The translations under genes were made by a program, and so were the position numbers. Of a stretch of DNA of 64,000 nt, positions 40,764-42,664 are shown piece by piece. The DNA is from Butyrivibrio proteoclasticus B316 (GTDB taxonomy: Bacteria > Bacillota > Clostridia > Lachnospirales > Lachnospiraceae). The DNA lies in NCBI RefSeq assembly GCF_000145035.1, contig NC_014387.1, forward strand, positions 1,850,001 through 1,914,000, in the 5' to 3' direction. The first letter of the stretch is position 1; each line of letters opens with the position of its first letter. Below the pieces are notes generated by a model, which saw nothing but the letters and a program-made list of their open reading frames with translations, was not told the DNA's origin and made no database searches.

Positions 40764-40863
40764 ATGTAGCAGCGGGATGCGACACTAGAACCGCGGGTCA
40801 AAACCCTTCGTCCAAATAGCAACTCCCTGTCTATCTGGCACTTAACGCTGTAGCGTCTACTCT
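40764..40863 (-). promoter_or_regulatory. Tetrahydrofolate (THF-I) riboswitch upstream of folT
   Basis: The minus strand reads GTAG, GCGTTAAGTG, GGGAGTTGC, GGACGAA, CGCGGT and GCATCCCGCTGCTAC in this order, matching the conserved core of the class I THF aptamer with a closing GTAG/CTAC stem. The aptamer ends about 60 nt before the folT start; control of ribosome access is likely since GGAGG lies downstream. Confidence 0.9.
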
Positions 40864-40956
40864 GCATAAACATTTTTTATTTGACATCATAATACATTAT
40901 AAGCAATATAATTGCAATATTTTCTTTAGCAATTATTACTGATCACAACATACTCA

Positions 40957-41616
40957 CTCCGCGTCACGGCCCGCCTGCAGGGACATAAGCGATTCGCAAA
41001 GAGGCATTTTTGCGCCTTTGTGAGTGCCGGGTTATTTCATGAGCCTCACAAATTCAGCCCGATATTCTAGCTTTGGCTCAACTGTCTGAACATTCGACGG
41101 CCCTTTTATCCACGCAGTGTTATTGCCTGCTCGTCACTGACAAAGGCAGATTTTCTTAGATGTTTCCGCATTTTTTCTTTTATTGATGCATGCTCAGCAA
41201 AACTTGCAGGACGGATAAGAAATCTACTAAATGAAAATGACAAAGCTCGCAATAGCGAGCGTATTAAAAAGAGAAGAACTCAATCTTTCAAGTAAACTTG
41301 AAGAAGTTGAGTTCTTCTCTTTTTATAGATGCTACGCATCATATGTCATTTTCATATTTTCAAAACTAACGCTCCGTCCTGCTTCAAACAAAGCTTCGCA
41401 TGCATCGTGAAAAAATGCTATGGAAACATTAGAAAATCGCCTTTGCCATCTCAGACTCGCATGCAACAACATCTGCTTGAAACCAGGCCGAGGATGTGAG
41501 TACTTTGAGCCATAGAATAGACGGCTGAATTTTTAAGGCCATGAAATCCCGGCAGGAGTGGCAAAAAAATGCCTCTTGCGCGAGCGTAATAACCTGCGGC
41601 GGGTCGTGACGCGGAG
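40957..41616. repeat. Giant imperfect palindrome (~660 bp), possible mobile element or paired ncRNA genes
   Basis: Two diverged arms of about 330 nt are inverted copies over their whole length. Matching blocks, outermost first, are 40957-40981 with 41593-41616 (CTCCGCGTCACG...), 40995-41016 with 41560-41580 (AGAGGCATTTTT), 41023-41045 with 41536-41557, 41052-41060 with 41522-41530, 41161-41168 with 41421-41428 (ATGTTTCC), GATGCATGC / GCATGCATC, GCAGGACGG / CCGTCCTGC, and ATGAAAATGACA / TGTCATTTTCAT. The axis lies near 41287-41302 inside a terminator-like hairpin. A direct repeat GCAATTA (40929-40935 and 41638-41644) flanks the palindrome at 21 nt on both sides; the right copy includes the gpsA stop. 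No convincing gene lies inside. Confidence 0.85.
41264..41326. terminator. Central bidirectional terminator-like hairpin of the palindrome
   Basis: An 18-bp perfect stem of AAAAAGAGAAGAACTCAA and its complement (41266-41283 with 41307-41324), with inner palindrome TTCAAGTAAACTTGAA (41287-41302). T tracts follow the stem on both strands, so transcripts entering from either side should stop here. Flanking small hairpins lie at 41245-41260 and 41329-41341. Confidence 0.8.
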
Positions 41617-41641
41617 ATAATCCATGAATAATAACCGGCAA

Positions 41642-42664
41642 TTACCAATCGAGGTTGCTGCTCTCGATCTTTTTATCTCTGATCATCAGATCATTAAGTG
41701 CTTCAGCTGGTGACTTGCCCTCAAAAAGGACCTGATTAACTGCTGTGACGATTGGCATCTCAACTTCATATTTTTCTGCAAGAAGTCTGGCAGCCTTAGC
41801 ACTGTATACGCCTTCTACTACCATCTTAACCTCATCCATAGCTTCCTGCATGGATTTACCCTGTCCAATAAGAATTCCTGCTCTTCTGTTTCTGGAATGC
41901 ATAGAAGCACAGGTTACTATAAGATCTCCGATTCCTGAAAGGCCGCTGAAAGTTTCAAATTTACCTCCCATAGCCATTCCAAGTCTTCCGATCTCTGCAA
42001 TACCTCTGGTAATCAGAGCCGCCTTGGCATTATCTCCAAGTCCGTATCCATCAGCAATACCTGCTGCAAGAGCAATGACATTCTTAAGAGCAGCACCTAT
42101 TTCTATGCCAAGCATATCCGGGCTGATATATACCCTGAAAACATTACTCATAAAGACATTCTGAACAAGCCTTGCTGTTTCCTTGTCAAATGCTCCCACT
42201 ACAATTGAAGTCGGCATTCCCTTTCCAACCTCCTCAGCATGAGAAGGACCTGACATTACACAAACCTGACATCCCGGGATTTCATCAAGAATTACATCAG
42301 ACATAACCATAAGGCTCTGTTCCTCAATTCCCTTAGAGCAGTTTACAATGATCTGCTGATGCTCATCATTGCCATCAACAAATGGTGCCATAAGCTTAAC
42401 AGTCTCTCTCATATGAGCAGAGGGAACAACAAGCACAATAAGGTCCTTATTTCTGACAGCTTCCTCCATGTTGCAAGTAAACACAACAGAATCATCAAGA
42501 ATCACTCCAGGAAGCTTATCTTCGTTGCCGTGATATGCCTTTAATTTATCTACAGTCTCCTGCCTTCTGGACCATACAGTAACCTTATGTCCGTTATTTC
42601 TAAGCAAATATGCAAGTGCAATGCCCCAACTGCCCGCACCTACTATGCCTATCTCTTTTTCCAA
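41642..42664 (-). CDS. gpsA: Glycerol-3-phosphate dehydrogenase [NAD(P)+]
   Basis: The enzyme reduces dihydroxyacetone phosphate to sn-glycerol 3-phosphate for phospholipid synthesis. It has 340 residues with the N-terminal Rossmann motif GIVGAGSWGIALA, VMSGPSHAEEVGKG near residue 138, the catalytic-lysine region GAALKNVIALAAGI near residue 190, and RGIAEIGRLGMAMGG. It lies 15 nt downstream of plsY, which uses its product, and they are probably in one operon with der. Its stop codon falls in the 7-bp repeat bounding the giant palindrome. Confidence 0.95.
   Translation of the reverse strand: MEKEIGIVGAGSWGIALAYLLRNNGHKVTVWSRRQETVDKLKAYHGNEDKLPGVILDDSVVFTCNMEEAVRNKDLIVLVVPSAHMRETVKLMAPFVDGNDEHQQIIVNCSKGIEEQSLMVMSDVILDEIPGCQVCVMSGPSHAEEVGKGMPTSIVVGAFDKETARLVQNVFMSNVFRVYISPDMLGIEIGAALKNVIALAAGIADGYGLGDNAKAALITRGIAEIGRLGMAMGGKFETFSGLSGIGDLIVTCASMHSRNRRAGILIGQGKSMQEAMDEVKMVVEGVYSAKAARLLAEKYEVEMPIVTAVNQVLFEGKSPAEALNDLMIRDKKIESSNLDW

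Follow-up and report, generated by a model that had tools for sequence, protein, structure and literature searches.

Locus and extent of the element

Within the window (the 64,000-nucleotide stretch of the Butyrivibrio proteoclasticus B316 genome analysed here; genome 4,404,886 bp, main contig 3,554,804 bp), two minus-strand genes that we take, by recognition and without a family search, to be gpsA and a folT-like gene, the latter preceded by a THF riboswitch, enclose a long imperfect palindrome (Table 1). The initial annotation had described a ~660-bp palindrome at 40957-41616 between these neighbours; the placement is correct, and both the complementarity of the arms and the folding of the whole stretch confirm that the structure is real. 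The outermost arms (40957-40975 and 41598-41616) are 95% complementary across 19 nt, and several more matching blocks inside the outer arms keep their order from the ends to the axis, as had been proposed. The folding of 40925-41645 as RNA produced a single rod whichever strand was taken (plus strand: -321.3 kcal/mol, z -17; minus strand: -344.4 kcal/mol, z -28; none of 20 shuffles as good in either case). The limits of the palindrome had, however, been drawn too narrowly: the element runs further out on both sides and measures ~701 bp (40935-41635), the positions at which the hairpin and the similarity to other copies reach the end repeats. The axis hairpin is perfect and has A and T tracts beside it, as described, but its arms are of 19 nt and not of 18 bp, and a shared terminator at this point was not borne out by the terminator scan, which gave no terminator-like call for it.

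Table 1. Features of the window copy and of its neighbours (window positions, except for the alignment columns of the last row).
Feature	Position	Strand	Remarks
THF riboswitch	40768-40866	-	87.2 bits, E 2.7e-20; ahead of folT-like gene
folT-like gene		-	preceded by THF riboswitch; name by recognition
Left target duplication TAGCAATT	40927-40934		6/8 identical to the right one CGGCAATT
Left terminal repeat ATTACTGATCAC	40935-40946	+	3 mismatches to family ends GTTAYYATTCAC
Outer left arm	40947-41124	+	diverged among copies, pairing with outer right arm kept (alignment, 28 elements)
Conserved inner left arm (model R2)	41125-41215	+	model search
12-bp inverted repeat ATGAAAATGACA at tip border	41231-41242	+	inverted-repeat listing
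Invertible tip	41243-41343		both orientations among copies
Tip contents	41243-41343		side hairpins GCTCGC..GCGAGC and GATGCTACGCATC, terminal hairpin between
Axis hairpin	41265-41325		perfect 19-nt arms 41265-41283/41307-41325, A and T tracts flanking
12-bp inverted repeat TGTCATTTTCAT at tip border	41344-41355	-	inverted-repeat listing
Conserved inner right arm (model R1)	41374-41460	+	model search
Outer right arm	41461-41623	+	alignment, 28 elements
Right terminal repeat	41624-41635	-	GTTATTATTCAT on minus strand; 1 mismatch
Right target duplication CGGCAATT	41636-41643		overlaps gpsA stop codon (41642-41644)
gpsA	41642-42664	-	open reading frame list; name by recognition
Near-fixed mismatched column pairs	139/725, 204/668, 212/662, 260/611, 261/610, 335/539, 338/534

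The palindrome carries no transposase, as first noted, the only reading frames of at least 60 aa in the window copy being overlapping ones of 65-70 aa. Nor does it belong to a known non-coding RNA class: no Rfam family reached the gathering score for the element, and we rejected a known RNA family as its identity. In the Rfam scan of the window copy and 18 loci, only THF, tRNA and ZTP families (none of which is the element) were found at threshold, and the sub-threshold matches of the axis hairpin were confined to eukaryotic miRNA models, at a level suggestive of chance.

Copies and host range

Searched at the DNA level, the same genome yielded 29 matching pieces, including near-full copies of ~95-96% and 92% identity. 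With a model of the inner right arm built from sequence alone (R1, 28 sequences), 13 right arms were recovered in this genome, each of them on the main chromosome, where five lie within ~76 kb (G000:C1 2499932-2576144). None of the 13 was found on the chromid and megaplasmids (C2-C4), which make up 19% of the genome; this is weak evidence. Two fragments were also seen, an outer arm next to a ZTP riboswitch (L040:3280-3328) and a tip remnant (L039:3045-3201). Counting this genome, the element is present in 32 of the 79 genomes of the genus (R1, E 0.001 or better), with 126 matches in all (sum of table), among them 17 in Butyrivibrio sp. INlla14 (G014), 14 in G067 and 11 in B. hungatei DSM 14810 (G031). 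Homologues, the search for which was the initial annotation's own test, were thus found both in the same genome and across the genus. An assembly artefact can be dismissed, because right arms occur 13 times in this genome and relatives are present in 31 other genomes of the genus, and because the passage of the B316 genome report on its assembly describes gaps closed by PCR and a check by PFGE (PMC2914790).

The folding sample consisted of fetched loci, a subset of the 126 matches, from which 7 of 100 arm matches were removed as repeats, leaving 93 places. At 91 of these the right arm was part of a hairpin (2 had too few pairs), and the hairpin spanned at least 450 nt in 73 cases and at least 550 nt in 70, the 18 below 450 nt including truncated copies and contig ends. 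The left-arm model (R2), run over 397 genomes of the family, had matches in 8: this genome, that of B. hungatei, five with weak single matches outside the genus (none in long hairpins), and a genome of another genus (G377), in which at least 10 matches were obtained and 10/10 places lay in hairpins of 336-447 nt. An arm-pair pattern search of viral contigs (one pattern) and a blastn search of plasmid and phage collections (from which the records of the window's own genome were possibly excluded) gave no match, and we found no description of the element in open-licence papers.

Ends, target duplications and an empty site

In five best-preserved copies, of which two belong to this genome, both ends are exact GTTAYYATTCAC, and the 8-bp flanks match at 8, 8, 8, 7 and 6 of 8 positions; terminal inverted repeats with target duplications, as in MITEs, are present in these copies. 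A limit of 3 mismatches per end repeat is passed on both sides by 19 of the 91 hairpins and not by the other 72. The 8-bp flanks of the 19 average 4.4 identical positions of 8, as compared with 2.2 when flanks are cross-paired, and identity of at least 6/8 occurs in 7/19 hairpins versus 0.29% of cross-paired flanks. Most copies have decayed ends, and those of the window copy are only fair (3 and 1 mismatches, duplication 6/8). Good ends without a duplication were seen at three loci (L141, L033 and L020).

The gpsA gene is present in 28 of the 31 genomes searched, and the stretch downstream of it was parsed in 18 loci, in which the element follows gpsA in this genome only and in none of 17 relatives (one of which was stopped by a contig end). 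In Butyrivibrio sp. INlla14, whose gpsA is 91% identical, the gene is joined directly to the THF riboswitch and the site could be aligned with joined flanks. There, as well as in G012 and G017, gpsA is followed within ~90 bp by an apparent THF riboswitch leader (identified by the family scan in INlla14 and G012, the two that it covered, and by reading in G017). Taken together, the end repeats, the 8-bp duplications and the empty gpsA-folT site of a relative identify the sequence as a non-autonomous transposable element, and hence, of the readings first offered, the palindromic non-autonomous mobile element is the one upheld by dispersed copies, by the ends and duplications of the best copies and by the empty orthologous site.

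Conserved pairing, fixed mismatches and the invertible tip

In the alignment of 28 elements from nine genomes, a structure of 166 pairs has 92.0% of its cells paired, as compared with 39-48% after a slide of one side by 1-3 columns, and 110 of the 166 stem pairs have changed on both sides and are still paired. The covariation score is 0.385 (0.080-0.120 when slid), and none of 500 shuffles reached any of the five pairing measures; as the structure was drawn from the same 28 sequences these measures are inflated, but by less than the effect seen. The covariation check proposed at the outset thus revealed conserved pairing with many double changes. The outer arms turn over rapidly between copies with their pairing maintained, and where close copies differ by double changes, these mostly lie apart, with few long runs.

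RNA helices tolerate G-U pairs and do not tolerate A-C. In 88 hairpins (3 of the 91, with no more than 60 paired bases, were left out) we counted 21,422 Watson-Crick pairs, 543 G.T and 581 A.C (p 0.27), and in the helix columns 122 G.T and 124 A.C, whereas nine tRNAs from the same loci gave 16 G.T and no A.C. The preference for G-U over A-C expected of a one-strand structured RNA is consequently absent, and since both mismatches are equally rare, unlike in the tRNAs, such an RNA is excluded as the form under selection. That the arms have remained complementary is unusual for DNA of this length and speaks for a working fold; a DNA hairpin is the favoured form, rather than RNA of both strands, which is possible.

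Seven mismatched column pairs (Table 1) keep the same two bases in at least 25 of the 28 elements. Their near-fixation is evidence for recognition or tolerance and against mere homogenisation of the arms. On either side of the inner 100 bp of the element lies a 12-bp inverted repeat, and 21 of 72 tips carry the diagnostic side-hairpin motif, 13 of them oriented as in the window and 8 inverted. Both forms coexist in this genome (8 and 3), in G039 (3 and 1) and in G071 (1 and 1). The orientation of outer relative to inner arms is kept in 60/60 right and 58/59 left arms, from which we conclude that the arms themselves do not flip.

At nine loci (L016, L018, L099-L101, L112, L146, L149 and L150) the tip is mostly gone, with 4-40 nt between the arm models as compared with ~140-190. 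One copy in this genome (L032:2132-7021, G000:C1 ~2495131-2500020) is split in its tip by an insert of ~4.5 kb containing a gene of 1390 aa with a C-terminal PNP_UDP_1 domain (E 3.5e-18); from its matches to the PADLOC models PDC-M60C and 'Effector PN-superfamily' this is likely a defence gene. Defence cargo as a rule was rejected: L032 alone has a multi-kb gap among the measured left/right arm pairs, which speaks for a single insertion.

Candidate mobilising enzyme

The 14-mer GTTACNATTCACAG occurs 127 times in the 79 genomes of the genus, as against 9 times for the reversed control (sums). It bounds an IS66-type element that fills a whole contig of 3,204 bp (L158), and the end repeat is found (0-1 mismatch) at all eight loci of IS66-like transposases, which a protein search detected in 8 of the 79 genomes, lying ~486-512 bp upstream of the gene in 7 of the 8. 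Duplications of 8 bp are documented for IS66 elements (PMC3281130). An IS66-type transposase would hence be the most likely enzyme to move the GTTACTATTCACAG-ended body in trans.

Hairpins were found in only 3 of the 8 IS66-bearing genomes and no IS66 transposase was found in this genome, so that loss of the helper, or another helper, must be assumed. The DDE_Tnp_1 transposases of this genome yielded no convincing pair of element ends. In G011 an IS4-like (DDE_Tnp_1) element of 1793 bp (L157:999-2791, contig C103) has GTTACNATTCACAG at both ends and no visible target duplication; two unrelated transposases are thereby associated with one end sequence. Two of the three IS66 copies whose flanks were inspected lack a clear duplication (L256 and L259), and L169/L170 is not a simple copy. 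Descent from an IS66 element found no support in sub-terminal sequence: the body had no blastn match at E 1 to the IS66 element (L158), nor to the IS4-like element.

Nine pairs of GTTACNATTCACAG (L159-L167) bound stretches of ~30-180 bp, and five of the nine (L159-L163) have perfect 8-bp duplications. These five, from G019, G073, G070 and G069, are ~143-147 bp long, share the same 14-bp ends and constitute a second, ordinary MITE family.

Genomic context and palindrome tolerance

Gene context, derived from mechanical open reading frame calls, was determined for 71 of the 73 hairpins of at least 450 nt (2 without genes on both sides were left out, and 20 of the 93 places, namely the 2 unpaired and the 18 shorter hairpins, had been excluded). 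The element lies between convergent genes in 27 cases, tandem genes in 38 and divergent genes in 6 (convergent versus divergent, p 0.0003), with a median distance of 28 bp to gene 3' ends (92 sides) and of 112 bp to 5' ends (50 sides). In tandem contexts its orientation shows no preference (21 versus 17, p 0.63).

Long palindromes are considered unstable where SbcCD is present. Palindromes are treated as a threat to genome stability in PMC3315005. An SbcD homologue of this genome scored 150.1 bits, well above the cut-off, and carriers of the element number 13 among the 37 genomes that exceed this cut-off and 19 among the other 42 (Fisher p 0.49); loss of SbcD as the cause of tolerance was rejected, carriage being unlinked to SbcD absence across the genus. 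We propose that the fixed mismatches, placed every few turns, may make the palindrome tolerable.

Proposed mechanism and alternative explanations

We consider it rather probable that the element is a MITE-like, non-autonomous transposable element whose 0.7-kb body consists of a single long imperfect hairpin and which a DDE transposase moves in trans, with a fold selected as DNA and a tip that inverts. In such a scheme the transposase (most likely of the IS66 type) would recognise the 12-14 bp ends GTTAYYATTCACAG, and insertion, usually just behind gene 3' ends, would generate the 8-bp target duplication. The complementarity of the body would be kept by selection on the DNA fold, either as a single-stranded hairpin or as a cruciform with fixed bulges, and the 100-bp tip would invert repeatedly, presumably through the adjoining 12-bp inverted repeats. 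The fold may serve for recognition by a protein or for tolerance of palindrome cutting by the host. A bolder version can be entertained tentatively, in which the element represents a new type of folded-DNA mobile element, with a 0.7-kb rod, protein-specific bulges and a flip/flop tip at a four-way junction, that would be processed or protected as a chromosomal hairpin or cruciform.

Several alternatives accommodate part of these data. If the hairpin acted at the RNA level, with transcripts of both strands or of the strand read through from a neighbouring gene, it could serve as a 3'-end stabiliser or as an RNase III substrate, of the type for which Correia and ERIC elements are known. Such a role would agree with the closeness of copies to gene 3' ends and their excess between convergent genes, it predicts the free orientation observed in tandem contexts, and equal G.T and A.C counts would be expected if both strands had to fold. 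The 3'-side position, however, also fits an insertion preference or selection against promoter damage, the A and T tracts at the axis of the window copy would tend to end a transcript before the second arm (the terminator scan notwithstanding), and no Rfam family was found at threshold; we regard this role as rather unlikely. The giant structured RNA that had been suggested at first, transcribed from a fixed strand, is very improbable: the conserved pairing with double changes that it foresaw is strong, and the minus strand of the window copy folds better than the plus strand, but the parity of G.T and A.C (in the 88 hairpins and in the helix columns) and its contrast with the tRNAs contradict the one-strand RNA. 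Even less credence can be given to the suggested pair of convergent, homologous non-coding RNA genes sharing a terminator. The inverted arms and the A/T tracts at the axis would suit them, but promoter-like sites in 40880-41700 number 2 as against 1.5 in shuffles and, when either arm of six elements was folded by itself on each strand (24 tests), the z scores were -2.64 to +1.66, so that single arms fold about as well as mononucleotide shuffles, for which reason we do not consider the arms to be RNA genes of their own.

The arms could also be kept alike by mutation, through template switching in the hairpin or gene conversion between arms, without any selection on the fold. The equality of G.T and A.C, the outer arms that change fast and stay paired, and the repeated inversion of the tip (which implies that arms or inner repeats recombine) are all compatible with such a process. 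It should nevertheless erase the seven mismatched pairs, which are fixed across elements of several species, and neither the mostly scattered double changes between close copies, in place of long runs, nor the conservation of the inner arms across genera is in its favour, and we thus judge it unlikely as the explanation for the complementarity.

Comparison with known systems and significance

The use of integron attC sites as folded single strands is familiar. Like the present element, these are imperfect DNA hairpins with extrahelical bases (PMC8266576); the element differs from them by being much longer and by the lack of a cassette array. Conserved mismatches in intergenic palindromes are shared with the REP/REPIN sequences associated with TnpA_REP, in which recognition as single-stranded DNA depends on the bulge (PMC8266576). 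REPs are given there as ~29-37 nt long, a length that the element does not match, and its ends are duplicated as by a DDE enzyme. With ERIC and Correia (NEMIS) elements, to which it is not known to be related in sequence, it shares an imperfect palindrome in intergenic positions near genes and possibly an ability to affect transcripts (PMC10969869), but it is ~five times longer and its pairing is strand-symmetric. IS66-family insertion sequences have in common with it the ends GTTACTATTCACA, which lie upstream of IS66 transposases at eight loci of the genus, and 8-bp duplications, while the element has no transposase and its body has no reported similarity to theirs (blastn, E 1).

Resemblance is also close to prokaryotic MITEs, which are likewise gene-free, have terminal repeats, 8-bp duplications (here in the best copies) and intergenic dispersal, and move in trans, as this element may do. 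MITEs are typically shorter than 500 bp, with terminal inverted repeats of ~4-30 bp (PMC10969869), and at ~0.7 kb (701 bp for the window copy) the element lies above the size limit of ~500-600 bp, the hairpins of G377 measuring 336-447 nt. It further departs from MITEs in forming a single hairpin over nearly its whole length, in which changes are compensated, certain mismatches are fixed and the tip can invert. Considered as a mobile element, it is comparable to MITEs; what appears new, judging from the open-licence papers searched, is a conserved DNA fold of such length.

Thirteen near-palindromes of ~0.7 kb thus persist in an SbcD-bearing genome, with their pairing kept through many substitutions. 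Counting G.T against A.C mismatches offers a simple test, open to general use, of whether a fold is one of DNA or of RNA. Should selection act on the DNA form, the present fold would rank with the longest DNA secondary structures under selection in bacterial chromosomes, and the copies of the element would provide a natural series for testing hairpin extrusion, palindrome tolerance and arm-to-arm recombination; should the element prove to be a folded-DNA element of a new type, the selected structure would be several times longer than attC or REP hairpins.
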